Assembly: GCF_947500125.1 (NCBI RefSeq)
Contig: NZ_CANMRA010000007.1
Coordinates: 1 to 64,000, forward strand
DNA: 64,000 bases
DNA from: an uncultured Kocuria sp.
GTDB taxonomy: Bacteria > Actinomycetota > Actinomycetes > Actinomycetales > Micrococcaceae
Direction: 5' to 3'
Shown: positions 35,368-42,270 of the stretch, in pieces
Numbering within the stretch: position 1 is the first letter of the stretch
How the letters are laid out: the number at the start of each line of letters is the position of its first letter
The notes under the pieces: generated by a model
Databases searched by the model: none
Told to the model about the DNA's origin: nothing
The model's input: only the letters and a program-made list of their open reading frames with translations
Made by a program: the position numbers and the translations under genes

Positions 35368-35709
35368 CTACGCGCAGGGGGAGCCCGGGGTCCACAGCGC
35401 GCGGACCATGTCCACGCGCACGAGGTGCCGGTCGTCCTCGCGCACGGGAGTGCCCTCCTCGCGGTACCGGTCCCGGGCCTCGGCCTGCAGGTGTTCGGCG
35501 AGGGTGCCCTGCACGGTGACCACGCGCCACCACGGGAGCTCCTCGCCGGTCGGGTTGCGCGCCATGACCGTGCCCACGGCGCGCGGGGAGCGGCACTCCG
35601 CCAGCTCCGCGACGTCCCGGTAGGACAGCACCCGGCCCGGAGGGATCCCGGCCACGACGTCCACCACGCGCCGCGCCAGGCCGGGGTCCGGCTCGGCCCG
35701 GCGGGTCAC
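35368..35709 (-). CDS. Alkyltransferase-like (ATL) DNA-repair protein
   Basis: 113 residues. ATL proteins resemble the C-terminal domain of O6-alkylguanine-DNA alkyltransferase, bind alkylated guanine and flag it for nucleotide excision repair, but cannot remove the alkyl group. VVDVVAGIPPGRVLSYRDVAELAECRSPRAVGTVMARNP is the DNA-binding helix-turn-helix and arginine finger; the active-site PCHR is replaced by PWWRVV, so the acceptor cysteine is missing. GTG at 35707-35709 overlaps the histidine kinase stop by four bases, an odd partner for a repair gene. Confidence 0.88.
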   Translation of the reverse strand: MTRRAEPDPGLARRVVDVVAGIPPGRVLSYRDVAELAECRSPRAVGTVMARNPTGEELPWWRVVTVQGTLAEHLQAEARDRYREEGTPVREDDRHLVRVDMVRALWTPGSPCA

Positions 35710-36941
35710 AGGGCGTCCCGGCCGTCCACGGGCAGGCACACGTCGAGGACCCACTGCCCGTTCTGCGGCCCGCTCTCGGCGTGCCCGCCCAGCAGGGACA
35801 CGCGCTCCGCGATGCCCCGCAGGCCGAGCCCCGAGGACAGATCCGAGGATTGGTTGCCCGTGCGCTGGTGGCTGCGGGGCATGGGATTCAGCACTCGCAG
35901 GCGCAGCTCGTGCTCGTCCGCCGCTACCTCGATCCGGCAGCCGGACCCGCGCGGGGCGTACTTGATGATGTTGGTGACCGACTCCTGCAGGATCCGGGCA
36001 GCCGTGCCGCGCACGGTCGTGGGCATGGCCTCGAGGTCCCCGGTGACGGCGACGTCCGGCTCGAAGCGCAGGTCCCGCAGGCTCGCCGCGAGGGACGTGA
36101 CCACGTGCTCCAGGCTGCCGATGGACAGGCCGGCGCCCGTGACGTCCCGGGGATGCTCTCCCTCGTTCTCGTTGCGCAGCAGCCGCAGCATCACCCGCAG
36201 CTCGTGCAGGGCCGAGCGGGCCGCGTCCTCCACGGTCTCGAGGACCTGGTGCAGCTCGCCCACGTCCCCGGAGCGGCGCCGGCTCATGGTCTGCATCGTG
36301 ATGAGGGTGAGCTCGTGGGCGACGACGTCGTGCAGGTCTCGGGCCAGCGCCTGCCGCTCGTCCTCCCGGAGCCGTTCGTTGAGGACCTCCAGGTCCCGGA
36401 CCCGCTCCTCGTTCTTGCGTCGCTGGCCCTGGAAGTACCTGACCGCGGAACCCGCCAGGGTCGCCACGAGCAGTCCGTTGAAGGTGAACCAGAACAAGGG
36501 GGAGTCGAAGGGGGCGTGGAACGTGGCGGCGGCCACCCCCCAGGCGAAGTACACGAGCAGGTGGACGACGAGGAACTTCCTGGTCGCCGTGGCGGCGACC
36601 GCGGCCGTCACCACGAAGACGGTGACGATGGCGGAGGCCTGGTAGTTCGCCAGAAGCGACGTGACCAGGCACGCCACCGAGGCAGCCGAGGCGTAGGTCG
36701 ACCGCCAGGCGATCATGCCGATCGCCGCCGAGGAGAGGATGGCGTCGAGAGTCAGCATGAGGTCGGCGTTGGCGTCGCCCGTGAAATGCTGGAACAGGTA
36801 CTGGAGCTGCGTCAGCAGAATGACGCCGGCATACAGAAGGACCACCACGGACAGCCACATGCCGATGGGTTCGGCTTGGAAGAACGGTGTCTTCGGTGCT
36901 GTGCGAGGTGGTCGCTCTGCAAGTGTTGCTATGTCAGTCAC
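35706..36941 (-). CDS. Membrane sensor histidine kinase (HisKA_3 / NarL partner type)
   Basis: 411 residues from GTG at 36941 (an in-frame TTG at 36947 would add two). The N-terminal ~150 residues form five to six membrane helices with very short loops (WLSVVVLLYAGVILLTQL, IVTVFVVTAAVAATA, FLVVHLLVYFAWGVAAATF, LFWFTFNGLLVATLAG), so the ligand is probably sensed in or near the membrane. ERVRDLEVLNERLREDERQALARDLHDVVAHELTLITMQ is a coiled coil plus the H-box, with phosphorylated His in RDLHD. ILQESVTNIIKYAP and GLGLRGIAERVSLLGG are the N and G boxes. The peptide gene lies about 30 bases upstream; the response regulator is divergent. Confidence 0.9.
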   Translation of the reverse strand: MTDIATLAERPPRTAPKTPFFQAEPIGMWLSVVVLLYAGVILLTQLQYLFQHFTGDANADLMLTLDAILSSAAIGMIAWRSTYASAASVACLVTSLLANYQASAIVTVFVVTAAVAATATRKFLVVHLLVYFAWGVAAATFHAPFDSPLFWFTFNGLLVATLAGSAVRYFQGQRRKNEERVRDLEVLNERLREDERQALARDLHDVVAHELTLITMQTMSRRRSGDVGELHQVLETVEDAARSALHELRVMLRLLRNENEGEHPRDVTGAGLSIGSLEHVVTSLAASLRDLRFEPDVAVTGDLEAMPTTVRGTAARILQESVTNIIKYAPRGSGCRIEVAADEHELRLRVLNPMPRSHQRTGNQSSDLSSGLGLRGIAERVSLLGGHAESGPQNGQWVLDVCLPVDGRDAL

Positions 36942-36971
36942 ACCCAATGGTGTACCGCATCCGAGGAAAAA

Positions 36972-37127
36972 TCATCGGCAGAGGAACGGGAACCACCCGC
37001 ACATGACGTAGCCGGGTGCCTGCGGCTTCTGGACCATGAGGGCGTTGGCGGGGGCGGCCGGGCCGACGATGAAGGACGCGGCGAGGGCGGCGGAGGCGAT
37101 GGCGGTGGTCAGCTTCTTCTTGGACAT
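36972..37127 (-). CDS. Small secreted Cys-containing peptide, putative signal for the adjacent two-component system
   Basis: 51 residues with a strong AAGGAG site six bases before ATG 37127. Residues 1-29 are a clear Sec signal peptide: KKK, a hydrophobic core (AIASAALAASFIVG) and an ANA cleavage site after residue 29. The predicted mature peptide is 22 residues and ends GYVMCGWFPFLCR. Cys43 and Cys50 flank six residues (GWFPFL), so a disulfide or other macrocycle is possible. It is the first gene of an operon with the histidine kinase, about 30 bases apart, and divergent from the response regulator, the usual arrangement of a pheromone-sensor pair. The role as a signal is inference; an immunity or unrelated secreted peptide is possible. 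Confidence 0.75.
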   Translation of the reverse strand: MSKKKLTTAIASAALAASFIVGPAAPANALMVQKPQAPGYVMCGWFPFLCR

Positions 37128-37265
37128 GGGGGGCTCCTTGGATCACGAGGACAGCACCGGATCGGGGGGTTGCGGCCGGTGAGGGGGGAGAGATGTCCCG
37201 GCCGCGAGGGGGGTGTGCTGCCCTGGTAGCTTCCATTTTGCCAACGTTAACCGTGTGCACCTATC

Positions 37266-37340
37266 GACCTTTGTCCAGACCGTTTGTGACTTTTGTCGAA
37301 TATGACGTGTTGCACTTTGGGGGACACGGAAAAATAGACT
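37266..37340 (+). promoter_or_regulatory. Promoter and repeat elements of the response-regulator gene
   Basis: TAGACT at 37335-37340 lies six bases before the GTG start, predicting a leaderless mRNA; TTGCAC at 37310-37315 is a possible -35 with a long 19-base spacer. Upstream are two direct repeats GACCTTTGTC (37266-37275) and GACTTTTGTC (37288-37297), 22 bases (two helical turns) apart. TTGTGACTTT (37284-37293) and TGCACTTTGGGGGAC (37311-37325) both recur in the flp pilin promoter. Confidence 0.6.
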
Positions 37341-37346
37341 GTGTGA

Positions 37347-38030
37347 GTGACTGATTGCAGAGTGCTTGTCGTGGACGACCAGCCGTTGATGCTGGAGGCC
37401 CTGAAGTCCTTCTTCTCCGCCGAGCCCGGATTCGAGGTCATCGGGACGGCGTCCAACGGACGTGAAGCCGTCGACCGATGTCTGGCGATCGACCCGGACG
37501 TGGTGCTGATGGACATGAAGATGCCCGTGATGGACGGGATCGACGCCACCCGGGAGATCACCTCGCGCAGTCCCCGCTCCAAGGTGCTGGCTCTCACGAC
37601 GTTCTCGACCCTGGAGTTCGTGGTGCCGGCCCTGCGTGCCGGTGCGGCCGGCTATCTGGTCAAGGACGCCCGGCCCGACGAGATCATCGACGCCGTGAAC
37701 CAGGTGCTCAACAACGAGATCGCCCTCTCCCCGGCGATCGCCCGAGCACTCGCGGACAACGTCATCTCCGTCCCGGACCAGCAGCAGGCGGCGCGCCCGG
37801 CGGACAGCGCCCTGCGCTCCCTGCTGACCGACCGGGAGATGGAGACCGTGACGCTCCTGGCACAGGGGCTGAGCAACCGGGAGATCGCCGAGCAGATGCA
37901 CGTCTCCGAGGGCAGCGTGAAGGCCTACCTCGGGCGGGTCTGTGAGAAGTTCGGGGTCCGCGACCGCGTGCAGGCGCTCATCAAGGCGTACCAGTACGGG
38001 CTCGTGGATCCGCAGCTGCGCGATCTCTGA
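37347..38030 (+). CDS. LuxR/NarL-family response regulator
   Basis: 227 residues. Receiver domain: VLVVDDQPLMLEAL with the acidic pair, phospho-acceptor Asp in PDVVLMDMKMPVMDG (about residue 53), ALTTFS and YLVKDARPDEI with the conserved Lys. C-terminal LuxR helix-turn-helix: LTDREMETVTLLAQGLSNREIAEQMHVSEGSVKAYLGRVCEKFGVRDRVQAL. Partner of the histidine kinase encoded divergently. GTG at 37347 with the -10 element six bases upstream and no ribosome site. Direct repeats at its own promoter suggest autoregulation. Confidence 0.92.
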   Translation: MTDCRVLVVDDQPLMLEALKSFFSAEPGFEVIGTASNGREAVDRCLAIDPDVVLMDMKMPVMDGIDATREITSRSPRSKVLALTTFSTLEFVVPALRAGAAGYLVKDARPDEIIDAVNQVLNNEIALSPAIARALADNVISVPDQQQAARPADSALRSLLTDREMETVTLLAQGLSNREIAEQMHVSEGSVKAYLGRVCEKFGVRDRVQALIKAYQYGLVDPQLRDL

Positions 38031-38088
38031 GTCCCGCCCGACCTCCGCCGCCCCGGATCCGGACGGAAGTCCAGTCCACGTGTAGACG

Positions 38089-38107
38089 AAAGTGTATTCA
38101 TCTGCAT
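38089..38107 (+). promoter_or_regulatory. 19-bp element shared with the flp promoter
   Basis: AAAGTGTATTCATCTGCAT matches AAAGTGCATGCATCTGAAT at 58736-58754 at 16 of 19 positions. Here it lies 59 bases past the response-regulator stop and just upstream of the candidate structured RNA. No clear -10/-35 pair; CATGAT at 38120-38125 is a weak -10 candidate. Confidence 0.45.
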
Positions 38108-38130
38108 TAGCAAACCCGGCATGATCGGTA

Positions 38131-38410
38131 GTGCGAGCAGAGAAGAAAAGTCGGTGGATGAGTGAGAGACATCCCCACGGTGCACGGCCCAACCCCCCAT
38201 GTGGCCGAGCCCCGGACCGGATGGTCCACCGACCTGCTCACGGTAGGGGGCCGCCCCGGGACAGTCCCCCCTGGATCGGGATGCGGCCGCGCAAGGCTTG
38301 GATCACCTTGCACCCCCCTCGGCCGATGGCCCCCTACCGTGCAACCTCTGCCCCGCGACTCCACGAACGAGAGCGGCCCCACCGGAACCGGTGGGGCCGC
38401 TCTCGTTCGT
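38131..38410 (+). ncRNA. Candidate structured RNA with C6 loops (6C-like)
   Basis: No coding frame of good character covers this 330-base gap. A hairpin CGGCC/GGCCG (38185-38189, 38203-38207) has a loop containing CCCCCC. GGACC/GGTCC (38214-38227) forms a small hairpin. A 14-bp long-range stem, CACGGTAGGGGGCC (38239-38252) with its complement at 38328-38341, encloses a second C6 loop closed by CCCG/CGGG, a GCAAGG/CCTTGC hairpin and a third C6 run. A 23-bp terminator ends it. The 6C RNA of actinobacteria is defined by hairpins with runs of six or more C and is reported near pilus-assembly and chromosome-partition genes. Identity with 6C is not proven. Confidence 0.45.
38363..38410. terminator. 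Very strong bidirectional terminator
   Basis: 23-bp perfect arms (38363-38385 and 38388-38410; core GAGAGCGGCCCCACCGG) with AA between. It separates the response regulator/RNA transcript from the convergent lactate regulator gene. Confidence 0.85.
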
Positions 38411-38480
38411 CCAGTGCGTTCCCTGCGTCCGCCGGGTCGTCCGCACGGGCCCGGGGGTCTTGGACCCTCTGGTCGTCCGG

Positions 38481-39218
38481 TCAGGCCCGCAGGCCCTGCT
38501 CCTCCTGGGCGGCGGCGCTGTGGCCGAAGAACCAGGTGATGTGCTCCCGCAGCGCGGCGGCGGCGTCCTCCCCCCGGCGCTCCTGGGTGGCGAGCAGGAT
38601 CGCCCGGTGCTGCTCCTGCAGGGTGCGGCGCACCTGCGGCCAGTCGTCGAGGCCGGCGACGGTCTCCTGGACGTACCCGATGGTGGCCTGGCGCAACGAG
38701 GACATGATCGTCTCGACCACCACGTTGCCGGCGAGGGACGCGAGCAGGATGTGGAACTGCGCGTCGGCGGCGTGGAAGCGCTCGTCCGGCAGGGCCGGAT
38801 CCTCCATGGCGGCGACCAGCTCCGCCGCGTGCTCGAGCACCGCCGCCCGCTCCGGAGTCTCCGCCGCGGCGGCCGCCTCGTGGGCGGACTGGGTCTCGAG
38901 CAGCAGCCGGGTCTGCATCAGGTCCCGCACCGGCAGGGACCGGGTGGCCACGTGCATCCGCAGCGCCCACCCGAGCGCGGCCGACGGGTCGGAGATGACG
39001 ATCGCTCCGGCGTTGGGCCCCGACCCGGTCGAGGAGCGGACCAGCCCCATGGCGTCGAGGATCCGGATCGCCTCCCGCACCGAGGCGCGGGAGATGCCGA
39101 ACTCCTCGGCCAGGTGGCGCTCCCCGGGCAGCTTGTCGCCCACCGAGATCTCGCCCGAGCGCAGGCGCTCCTCGAGCCAGTCGAGGACGACGGTGTACAT
39201 GCGTGAGGCTGCGGGCAC
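38481..39218 (-). CDS. lldR: FadR/GntR regulator, probable lactate regulator LldR
   Basis: 245 residues. N-terminal winged helix (MYTVVLDWLEERLRSGEISVGDKLPGERHLAEEFGISRASVREAIRILDAMGLVRSSTG, about residues 8-66) and a C-terminal FCD domain (LMQTRLLLETQSAHEAAAA, FHAADAQFHILLASLAGN, EQHRAILLATQERR) with metal/ligand His residues. It follows the lactate permease on the same strand, and three TGGTCNGACCA operators lie at the two lactate promoters, so it most likely represses lctP and lutABC and is released by L-lactate. ATG at 39218. Confidence 0.88.
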   Translation of the reverse strand: MPAASRMYTVVLDWLEERLRSGEISVGDKLPGERHLAEEFGISRASVREAIRILDAMGLVRSSTGSGPNAGAIVISDPSAALGWALRMHVATRSLPVRDLMQTRLLLETQSAHEAAAAAETPERAAVLEHAAELVAAMEDPALPDERFHAADAQFHILLASLAGNVVVETIMSSLRQATIGYVQETVAGLDDWPQVRRTLQEQHRAILLATQERRGEDAAAALREHITWFFGHSAAAQEEQGLRA

Positions 39219-39275
39219 GGGGGCTCCTCGGGGGATGGGCGGGACGCGGACCAGTCTAGGGAAGTGCGGAGGCTC

Positions 39276-39324
39276 GCCGGGCCGGGGGCGACGACGCCCC
39301 CGGCCCGGCGGCCGGGGGCGTCGT
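39276..39324 (-). terminator. Terminator of the lactate permease gene, with alternative pairing
   Basis: GCCGGGCCGGGGGCG (39276-39290), loop ACGA, and its exact complement (39295-39309) form a 15-bp stem. A third arm, GCCGGGGGCGTCGT (39311-39324), can pair instead with 39291-39304. It lies between the permease stop (39351) and the regulator start (39218). Confidence 0.75.
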
Positions 39325-39350
39325 GCAGGACGGTGCCGTCGCGTGCCGGA

Positions 39351-41138
39351 TCAGACCCGGCTCCGCTCCTCCGCCGTCACGTCCTGGCGCGTCAGCCGGC
39401 GCGCCAGGACGGCGAGCCCGGCGACGAGCAGGACCAGCATGACGGTGCCCAGGTTGAAGCCCACGCCGTGGATGAAGAGGTAGGCGACCGCGCCGCCGGC
39501 GAGGCAGTAGTAGGTGGTCACGATGATGGTTTTGCGCAGCAGGTCTCCCTCGCGCCCGAGCAGGCCCACGGTGGCGGAGGCCGCCACGATGTTGTGGATC
39601 GCGATCGGGTTGCCGCCGGCCCCGCCGATGGCCTGGGCGGCCACCACGAGTTCGGGCCGCTCGAGGCCGATGGCGGCGCCGGTGGAGAACTGGAACTGGG
39701 AGAAGGTCAGGTTGGACACGGTGTTCGACCCTGCGATGAAGGCGCCCAGCGCGCCGATCCAGGGAGCGATCACCGGCCAGGAGCCGCCCGAGATCGCGGC
39801 GGCCCCCTCGGCGAGGGTGACCGGCATGCTGGAGAGCCCTGAGTCGTTGAGCGCGGGGCCGGACTGGATGAGCACGCGCACCAGCGGAACGGCGAAGAGC
39901 AGCGCGGCGGCGGTGCCGGCGAGCTGGCCGGCCGAGATCCTGAGCGTCCGGGTGATCTCGCGGGAGCTCATCCGGTGCAGCAGGTAGGCGAAGACCGAGG
40001 CGAGGATCAGCACGAAGCCGGGCAGGTAGAACGGCTGGACGGTGGTGGTGATCTCGGTGCCCAGGATGTTCTCGAACGGGATCGCCAGACCGGTCAGCCA
40101 CTCCTTGAACGGGGTGATGACGCGGGTGGCCACCAGCAGTCCCGCCATCAGGGCGTAGGGGGCCCAGGCGCGGACCGTGCTCATGTGCGTGGACACGTCC
40201 GTGGCCTCGGCCGGCTCGATGGTGCCCATCCAGCGCGCGGGCCAGCCGGCACGGGGGCCGAACTGGAAGGTGTCCTTCGGCATGAGGAAGCCCTTGCTGG
40301 AGGTGAACATCACCAGCACCAGTCCGAGGATCCCGCCGAACATCGAGGGGAACTCGGGGCCCAGGAAGCGGGCGACCAGCACGTAGGGGACGGTCATGGC
40401 CAGGGACGCGTACACGGCGAAGGGCCAGACGGCGAGGCCGTCGCGGAAGCGCCGTTCGGGGCCGAAGAAGCCGGTGAGCAGGGTCACGAGGATCAGCGGG
40501 ATGAGGATGCCCACGATGCCGTGCATGGCCGCGGTGTAGAAGCCGATGGAGTTGACGAACTCGGGCATCGTCACGCCCAGGACCTCGACGCGCTCTGCGA
40601 CCGCCGGGTCACCGCCCAGGCCTCCCGCCACTCCCACCAGGATGGGTGTGCCGACCGCGCCGAAGCTCACGGGGGTGGACTGGACGATCAGCCCCACCAT
40701 GACGGCGGCCATCGCGGGGAAGCCCATGGCCAGGAGCAGCGGGGCCACCACCGCCGCCGTGGTGCCGAAGCCCGAGACGCCCTCGATGAAGGAGCCGAAG
40801 AGCCAGCCGATGATGATGGCCTGGATCCGCCGGTCGGCGGAGATGTTGTTGAAGCCGGCGCGGATCGTGGCCATGGCCCCGCCCACGGTGAGGGTGGAGA
40901 GCAGCAGCAGGGCGCCGAACACGATGTAGAGCATGGTGATGGCCACGATCAGACCCTCGATGGTGGCGGCCAGCACCCCGGTGAAGCTCATGCGCCAGAC
41001 GAGCAGCGCCACCAGCACAGCGGTGAGGTAGCCCACCGGCATCGCGTACTTCGCGGGCCACCGGAAGCCGGCCAGGAGCACGCCCACCAGGAGCAGGGGC
41101 AGCAGAGCCAAGAGGCTCAGCACAGCAAGATTGTCCAC
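39351..41138 (-). CDS. lctP: L-lactate permease, LctP/LldP family
   Basis: 595 residues, about 13-14 membrane helices; imports L-lactate (also glycolate) with protons. Start GTG at 41138 ([22 protein letters not shown]) with an AAGGA site upstream; an ATG at 41279 would put the operators inside the gene and is rejected. Family features: [45 protein letters not shown], and near the C-terminus [22 protein letters not shown] and [29 protein letters not shown]. Divergent from lutABC across a shared operator region. Confidence 0.95.
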
Positions 41139-41230
41139 GGAGAGATCCTTTCTGGGCCCACCTCGTCGAGGGTGGGGCAAGGGGAGAGGACGGGCGTGTG
41201 CGGAAGAGGTCCGGCCATCGGCCGACCCTA

Positions 41231-41255
41231 TGGTCGGACCACAATGGTCTGACCA
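41231..41255. promoter_or_regulatory. Two LldR-type operators at the lactate permease promoter
   Basis: TGGTCGGACCA (41231-41241) and TGGTCTGACCA (41245-41255) are 11-bp palindromes 14 bases apart, 93-117 bases before the lctP start. They match the FadR-group pattern TNGTNNNACNA. A partial CRP-like site (CATGA-N6-TCACA, 41265-41280) lies next to them. Confidence 0.8.
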
Positions 41256-41326
41256 CAAAGAGTACATGACCCACGTCACAACCCCAACCCCCTCGAACGC
41301 ACGGGATCGGCTGTGCCCGGGACTCG

Positions 41327-41365
41327 TTGTGGCGTCCGTCTCATCGGTCTAGTATGGTCAGACCA
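41327..41365 (+). promoter_or_regulatory. lutABC promoter with LldR-type operator
   Basis: TTGTGG (41327-41332), 17 bases, TAGTAT (41350-41355) is the best-formed vegetative promoter in the window. The operator TGGTCAGACCA (41355-41365) starts on the last base of the -10 and covers the transcription start, so a bound repressor would block it. Confidence 0.85.
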
Positions 41366-41418
41366 CACGCGGCGCTGCGCCGTCGTCGCTCCTTCCGCTC
41401 CTCGTTCCCGGAGGCACC

Positions 41419-42270
41419 ATGAGAATCGCCCTGTTCGCCACGTGCATCGTGGACGCGATGTACCCGCGGGTCGCCCTGGCCACGGTCCGGGTGCTCGAGC
41501 GGCTCGGCCACGAGGTGGTGTTCCCGCCCGGCCAGGGCTGCTGCTCCCAGATGCACGTCAACAGCGGCTACTTCGACGACGCCCTGCCCGTGGTCCGCAA
41601 CCACGTCAAGGCCTTCTCCGCCGCGGACTACGACGTGGCCGTGGCCCCCTCGGGCTCCTGCGTCGCCTCCCTGGGCCACCAGCAGCCGATGATCGCCCGT
41701 GCCGGCGGCGACGAGGCCCTCGCCCGGGAAGCGGCGGCCGTCGCCGCGACCACCTACGAGCTCTCCCAGCTGCTGACCGACGTGCTCGGCGTGACGGACG
41801 CGGCCGCGCAGCTCGGCTCCTGGTTCCCGCACCGGGTGACCTACCACCCCTCCTGCCACGGGATGCGGCTGCTGCGCCTGGGGGACCGGCAGAAGAACCT
41901 GGTCGCCTCGGTCGGCGACATCGACTTCGTCGAGCTGCCCGACGCCGACGAGTGCTGCGGGTTCGGCGGGACGTTCTCCTTCAAGAACCCGGACGTCTCC
42001 GCCGCGATGGCCGAGGAGAAGATCGACAACATCGTCTCGACCGGCGCCGAGCTGTGCACCGGAGGGGACGCCTCCTGCCTGATGCACCTGGGCGGGGCCA
42101 TGAACCGCCGGGACTCCGGGCCGGCCACCGTCCACTTCGCCGAGATCCTCGCCTCCACCCGCGAGAACCCGCTCGAGGTCTCCGGGCCGGTCGAGCTGTC
42201 CATCCCGGGCCCGAGGGCGCGCCGCACGGCGTCGTCGTCGGCCCCCACCACCGCTGGAGGTGCTCGATGA
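41419..42270 (+). CDS. lutA: L-lactate oxidation complex subunit LutA
   Basis: 283 residues. (Fe-S)-binding protein with two cysteine-rich CCG domains: QGCCSQMHVNSGYFDDALP near residue 37 and CHGMRLL with ECCGFGGTFSFKN in the second half. LutABC together oxidise L-lactate to pyruvate in the cytoplasm. ATG follows GAGGCACC; the last ~40 residues are a variable Arg/Ser tail longer than in Bacillus LutA. The stop overlaps the lutB start (ATGA). Confidence 0.93.
   Translation: MRIALFATCIVDAMYPRVALATVRVLERLGHEVVFPPGQGCCSQMHVNSGYFDDALPVVRNHVKAFSAADYDVAVAPSGSCVASLGHQQPMIARAGGDEALAREAAAVAATTYELSQLLTDVLGVTDAAAQLGSWFPHRVTYHPSCHGMRLLRLGDRQKNLVASVGDIDFVELPDADECCGFGGTFSFKNPDVSAAMAEEKIDNIVSTGAELCTGGDASCLMHLGGAMNRRDSGPATVHFAEILASTRENPLEVSGPVELSIPGPRARRTASSSAPTTAGGAR

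Follow-up and report, generated by a model that had tools for sequence, protein, structure and literature searches.

The window analysed here, meaning the whole stretch of 64,000 nucleotides, comes from a 4.3-Mb genome of the genus Kocuria. It contains a small gene for a putative secreted peptide, which lies between a histidine kinase gene and a divergently transcribed response regulator gene. The features of this locus, in which clade A denotes the window's own clade of eight loci, are as follows.

35706..36947, minus strand: histidine kinase of the DesK type, with about six membrane segments and HisKA_3 and HATPase_c domains, the proposed receptor (Pfam, hydropathy, orthologues)
36972..37127, minus strand: precursor peptide gene, 51 residues, with a Sec-type leader and a C-terminal Cys-x6-Cys-Arg (open reading frame, and relatives beside orthologous kinases)
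37041..37127, minus strand: predicted Sec signal peptide, residues 1-29, with the AxA motif A-N-A (by rule from the sequence)
36975..37040, minus strand: predicted mature peptide of 22 residues, LMVQKPQAPGYVMCGWFPFLCR (placed by the AxA site)
36978..37001, minus strand: Cys43-GWFPFL-Cys50, proposed disulphide ring (both cysteines invariant in the nine-row alignment A1; loop frame)
37134..37139, minus strand: ribosome-binding site AAGGAG (from the sequence; AGGAG kept in 8/8 clade-A sequences)
37128..37346, no strand assigned: divergent intergenic control region with the 12-base block CTGGACAAAGGT (block invariant in 8/8 clade-A loci)
37347..38030, plus strand: divergent response regulator of the NarL/LuxR type (Response_reg, E 4.1e-29; GerE, E 6.7e-17)

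The initial annotation had described a 51-residue gene behind a good ribosome site, with a 22-residue mature form that ends in CGWFPFLC plus Arg, about 30 bases from a polytopic kinase with short loops and opposite a NarL-type regulator. These details agree with what is found, although the span given for the system, 36972..38030, covers the peptide and the regulator and omits the kinase. The precursor reads MSKKKLTTAIASAALAASFIVGPAAPANA/LMVQKPQAPGYVMCGWFPFLCR (leader/mature), its tail being CGWFPFLC-R; cleavage after residue 29 follows the AxA rule of thumb, and AAGGAG stands 6 bases from the ATG. Neither Pfam (best E 0.39, none above the cut-off) nor NCBIfam assigns the precursor to a family. 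The kinase would start at a TTG 24 nt past the peptide stop or, alternatively, at a GTG at 36941 (VTDIAT..., compare VTDVIS... in L010), which makes the spacing 30 nt. It matches HisKA_3 with an E value of 3e-12 and HATPase_c with 1.6e-5, the latter at 25.8 bits and so slightly below the cut-off of 26.4. About six membrane segments and no large outer domain are seen in a rough hydropathy count, the raw number of segments ranging from 4 to 9 depending on the orthologue. Among 32 peptide-linked kinases (set A2), HisKA_3 is present in all 32 and HATPase_c in 26 (E<=0.01), while the membrane half has no recurrent Pfam family; the best solved match of the catalytic half is DesK (E 2.1e-24).

The start of the regulator lies 219 nt from that of the peptide. 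An 18-base pattern around CTGGACAAAGGT has a single exact site in the genome, at 37261-37278; together with two sites at two mismatches this makes three, versus seven for the reversed control. A search of the genome with this intergenic pattern gave no second convincing site, and consequently no regulon was found. Several other readings of the peptide region were considered and set aside. A leader RNA spanning the peptide gene finds no support, as the fold of 36950-37260 (minus strand) is no more stable than its shuffles (z -0.33), and plasmid-borne spread of the peptide is rejected, as 72,556 plasmid records hold no match to it. A role in defence was likewise dismissed: in PADLOC neither the peptide nor the kinase has a match, and the six matches of the regulator (best E 9.4e-7) are read as common DNA-binding or receiver domains.

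The initial annotation had named absence of the peptide next to orthologues of the kinase as a result that would refute it, and had asked whether the Cys-x6-Cys tail is kept. Searching 27 Kocuria genomes with the window kinase returned 19 orthologues, the window's own included, that are 37-100% identical to it. In all 19, a Cys-x6-Cys precursor lies immediately upstream and a divergent regulator is present; both cysteines are kept while the residues between them vary. The peptide-signalling system proposed earlier thus comes through this comparison and stays a candidate. One Kocuria genome (G174) carries the same peptide as the window. A twentieth locus with the same arrangement occurs in a sister genus (G148), and it is possible that this is contamination, since the locus sits on a contig of 3.9 kb in an assembly of 430 contigs. 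More distant kinases with different cysteine-pair peptides are found in Kocuria genomes G208, G036, G134, and G207, and at least one candidate is present in 23 of the 27 genomes; in G120, G200, G204, and G206, the single kinase locus inspected per genome had no candidate. With the 51-residue precursor itself as the query, 29 of 197 family genomes matched at E<=0.1. A kinase and a divergent regulator adjoin nine of the matches (G000, G148, G161, G196, G103, G174, G149, G083, G061), and the others are taken for chance. A profile of nine precursors (A1), searched at E<=0.1, matched 22 of the 27 Kocuria genomes, the tail of the list being chance hits.

The kinase search was extended to the family, where at least 120 of 395 genomes matched at E<=1e-26, the best few candidates per genome being scored. 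The census comprised 141 kinase loci from 124 genomes: 30 from the Kocuria search, some of which fall below this threshold, 11 from the family search, and 100 fetched afterwards. Six listed family matches, in G197, G180, G202, G141, G148, and G113, lie outside the 141. The final scan found a cysteine-pair secretory reading frame in front of the kinase at 94 of the 141 loci, and its presence goes with gene order. Where the regulator is divergent and the gap at least 180 bp, 91 of 93 loci are positive. The two misses (L184, L185) have a Nesterenkonia-type precursor that was dropped by the filter, and their addition brings the total to 96 loci, spread over 89 genomes of which seven have two. Three of nine loci are positive when the regulator is upstream on the same strand, none of 20 when it is downstream, none of 18 when it is divergent with a short gap, and the one locus lacking a regulator match is negative. 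Many related kinases in the census thus have no peptide, and a positive locus occurs in 11 of the 32 genera sampled.

Since the filters were set once the first relatives were known, the controls weigh more than the raw counts. Under the final filter, the opposite strand gave 4/141, dinucleotide shuffles 18/1410, and other same-strand windows 4/699. A stricter filter retained 82 of the 93 loci versus 0 of the 48 others, its controls being 3/141 (opposite strand), 11/2820 (mononucleotide shuffles), and 2/699 (elsewhere). The peptide-kinase-regulator arrangement exceeds chance, and a chance origin of the peptide reading frame is excluded by these two sets of controls together with the loop-shuffle test described below. 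A first, loose filter had scored 98/141; the odd reading frames that it accepted in L121, L131, L157, L162, L168, and L196, all loci lacking a regulator-linked peptide, are taken for chance and are gone under the later filters. Among the best 80 named loci, five are positive, namely those of Kocuria varians, Arachnia propionica, Paeniglutamicibacter psychrophenolicus, Arthrobacter sp. C2, and Micrococcus lylae. None of the remaining 75 is, and in 69 of these the regulator is downstream on the same strand.

The peptides are diverse within a fixed frame. Among the 94 precursors there are 73 distinct loops; the cysteines are six residues apart in 70 and 5 to 9 apart overall, and the tail beyond the second of them is 0 to 4 residues long. 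Two cysteines are present in 75 precursors, three in 17, and four in 2. An SD-like motif was scored in just 42 of the 94. The diverse loops have a common frame, C-x-x-[YFW]-[GP]-x-x-C. When the 52 distinct loops of six residues are compared, position 3 is aromatic (Tyr, Phe, or Trp) in 44, and position 4 is occupied by Gly or Pro in 48; for the latter, 5000 within-loop shuffles gave a mean of 10 and a maximum of 20. A fixed turn within a variable ring is what one would expect a family of ring ligands to look like.

The kinases diverge more in the sensor half than in the catalytic half. In clade A, the divergence of the sensor half is 0.51, that of the catalytic half 0.17, and that of the regulator 0.07, which puts the sensor/catalytic ratio at 3.0 (8/8 sequences). 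In clade B (12 loci) the values are 0.47, 0.31, and 0.20. The sensor/catalytic ratio is 1.5 in Kocuria B (12 sequences), 2.0 in group g22 (12/13), 1.7 in g23 (15), 2.1 in g4 (6/7), and 3.3 in Nesterenkonia (9), versus 1.36 (13/14) and 1.25 (11/14) in two groups without a peptide, so that clade B and g23 are little above these controls. Within clade A, mean pairwise identity is highest in the catalytic half (0.82), followed by two inner loops (0.64) and the helices (0.49), and lowest in the predicted outer loops (0.34); the loop borders were placed by hand. One example is the pair L069 and L071, which are 0.97 identical in the regulator and 0.90 in the catalytic half and 0.51 in the sensor.

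Furthermore, loop and sensor vary together in the window's clade. When catalytic distance is taken into account, a partial Mantel test of loop against sensor gives r 0.71 (p 0.0016) for clade A and r 0.41 (p 0.0002) for all 20 loci, 19 of which belong to one genus; for the 12 loci of clade B there is no correlation past catalytic distance (r -0.05, p 0.66). Two clade-A loci, L074 and L075, have the same loop, CYYVPFWC. Their sensors are 0.69 identical to each other versus 0.39-0.49 to other clade-A partners, and their catalytic halves 0.82 versus 0.77-0.84. The sensor tree joins them with 99/99 support, and the catalytic tree does not resolve them. Since the regulator tree also joins them, weakly (87/66), shared descent explains the pair no less well than exchange of a module, and the two may simply be sister species.

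The earlier comparison with the agr and com layouts stands as an analogy and fails as a statement of membership, which is ruled out by the leader, the kinase class, and the regulator class. In the agr system (AgrBDCA of Staphylococcus and relatives), a cyclisable Cys-containing peptide acts with a membrane-helix kinase, and the peptide and the sensor half vary while the catalytic half and the regulator are constant. The present system resembles agr in its cyclisable Cys-containing peptide, in having a regulator, in a kinase built of membrane helices without a large outer domain, and in the pattern of variation, which is clear in clade A and weaker in clade B. It differs in having a Sec-type leader, a pair of cysteines, and a divergent regulator, and in using a HisKA_3 kinase with a GerE regulator rather than the AgrC-type (HPK10) kinase and LytTR-type regulator of agr. 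That no AgrB-like protease is adjacent, as had been remarked, accords with a search for PF04647 (AgrB) that found none in the 27 Kocuria genomes at E<=0.001, the control being weak (one of 14 control genomes responded, below the cut-off). The ComCDE and Blp systems of streptococci likewise have a small precursor gene adjoining kinase and regulator genes. However, the leader in the window is of the Sec type, ends in ...APANA, and is not of the double-glycine type, there being no GG in the precursor; no exporter gene recurs at the loci read, and the kinase and regulator classes are other ones. By sequence, the kinase and regulator belong with the DesK/LiaS-type (HisKA_3) kinases and NarL/LuxR-type regulators, from which they differ in a membrane half without a recurrent Pfam family and in the coupled gene for a secreted peptide. 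Several RRNPP circuits (Rap-Phr, PlcR-PapR, ComRS) have Sec-exported precursor peptides too, but their receptors are intracellular; here no intracellular TPR receptor is adjacent, and the peptide gene is coupled to that of a HisKA_3 kinase in the membrane.

These findings have led to a model with agr-like logic that belongs to neither agr nor com: a Sec-exported, probably disulphide-ringed pheromone system, a reading that is considered probable. In this model, Sec would export the newly made precursor and signal peptidase would cleave it, as predicted from its sequence. Outside the cell, its two C-terminal cysteines would most probably close an eight-residue ring by a disulphide, the presence of two making a disulphide likelier than a thiolactone or lactone ring. 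The genetic data speak strongly for a pair of peptide and receptor, and genetic coupling and the divergence pattern suggest that the ring would bind the adjacent DesK-type kinase in its membrane half. The kinase would then alter the flow of phosphate to the divergent NarL-type regulator, which would probably act on the shared promoter region and on other targets, and pherotypes would differ from species to species. We infer the pheromone role, the disulphide, the binding to the kinase, and the output with its regulon from the arrangement and its variation.

It is also conceivable, if rather improbable, that the product is a partner acting in cis, that is, a small protein kept in or at the membrane of the producer whose cysteine loop tunes the neighbouring kinase as an accessory subunit. 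Five Nesterenkonia-type precursors (L160, L166, L179, L180, L190) have a long hydrophobic stretch and no AxA-like site, and these may remain membrane-bound. In addition, the peptide stop lies beyond the estimated kinase start, which is extrapolated, in 32 of 94 loci (by up to +37), so that peptide and kinase may be co-translated there. Against this, an AxA-like site follows the hydrophobic core in 89 of the 94 precursors by a loose test, and loop diversity of this kind would be commoner for signals that are told apart between cells.

A pheromone is also preferred over two further ideas. Some short peptides that are secreted and carry a disulphide loop act as antimicrobials, and peptides of this kind are often under two-component control. 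The peptide might accordingly be a bacteriocin with its own sensing module, which inhibits relatives while the two-component system governs production or resistance. In one genus, three loci (L103, L112, L125) do have a transporter-like gene after the kinase, and ABC-transporter genes are near the single loci L140, L146, and L241. Yet in 29 representative loci (read by eye with a rough gene picker) no gene for immunity or export turns up repeatedly from genus to genus, and in clade A the sensor half diverges together with the loop, as a receptor would; the bacteriocin is regarded as unlikely. Still less credible is an extracellular redox sensor, in which the cysteine pair would toggle between thiol and disulphide and report to the kinase. 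Such a switch would fit a family defined by two C-terminal cysteines, six apart in most members and with no third cysteine in 75 of 94, but it needs neither diverse loop residues nor a fast-changing sensor half.

Beyond the family, a profile of the A2 kinases matched 57 of 297 order genomes at E<=1e-60. Among 27 of the 30 order loci returned, cysteine-pair precursors are present in four, L213, L215, L216, and L221, which belong to three other families. Across 396 phylum genomes, the sole match of the window kinase at E<=1e-28 was in its own genome, a threshold that distant forms would escape. The system seems to be centred on Micrococcales, with Arachnia an outlier. In Arachnia propionica (L241, 2731-4167), a precursor with the tail CSTPFFHLFCRQ adjoins a kinase; a regulator match is absent from this 7.2-kb locus, and the regulator may be located elsewhere. 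Outside Micrococcaceae, very short leaderless reading frames were seen between regulator and kinase in L218, L219, L220, L222, L227, and L229, that of L219 having 18 residues with C-x5-C and those of L220 and L222 having 15 residues and no Cys. They could be chance, and a leaderless branch is possible.

A wider proposal, to which somewhat better than even chances are given, is that these loci represent a sizeable and so far unreported pheromone family of Micrococcales. It would comprise Sec-exported Cys-Cys rings of the frame C-x-x-aromatic-Gly/Pro-x-x-C, DesK-type kinases of about six helices, and dozens of pherotypes, sometimes with two circuits per cell, and it would possibly control density-dependent traits such as transformation in Micrococcus. 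The earlier remark that no described actinobacterial system with such a peptide is known holds among the best matches in the open-access literature, where no account of this peptide-kinase family was found. For quorum sensing in Kocuria and Arthrobacter, a 2016 review gives bioinformatic evidence only, in the form of LuxR-type domains (PMC4748050). A 2026 study on competence and cell density in Micrococcus luteus reports that its data point to neither a signalling peptide nor a two-component system and favours nutrient or metabolite signals (PMC12849477), and a 2021 study identified a two-component gene whose mutation reduced transformation (PMC8467076). Micrococcus genomes carry peptide-kinase loci (L123, L132, L135, L141, and others), and a candidate link to competence and transformation is consequently now testable. 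Peptide signalling in high-GC Gram-positives has been little charted, and if the proposal is true, the family would provide a natural set of receptor-ligand pairs for studies of specificity.

Several features of the neighbourhood were also observed. Directly after the regulator lies a conserved non-coding stretch (38040-38420, plus strand) that is 76-93% identical over 240-383 bases in seven other clade-A loci and has no hit in the 12 clade-B loci. The part from 38120 to 38350 has an RNA fold z of -3.6. The stretch has no Rfam match at the gathering score; its two C-rich loops are reminiscent of the 6C-type RNA, to which there is no match. A GC-rich inverted repeat at 38363-38410, between the regulator and the next gene, is probably a terminator. 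Right after the kinase, a reading frame from 35368 to about 35706 (minus strand) resembles, by eye, an alkyltransferase-like DNA-binding protein, and L012, L013, and L015 have a comparable reading frame after their kinases. On the other side, 38481-42270 encodes what appear by eye to be a FadR-type regulator, a lactate-permease-like protein, and a LutA-like protein, probably a lactate-use cluster.
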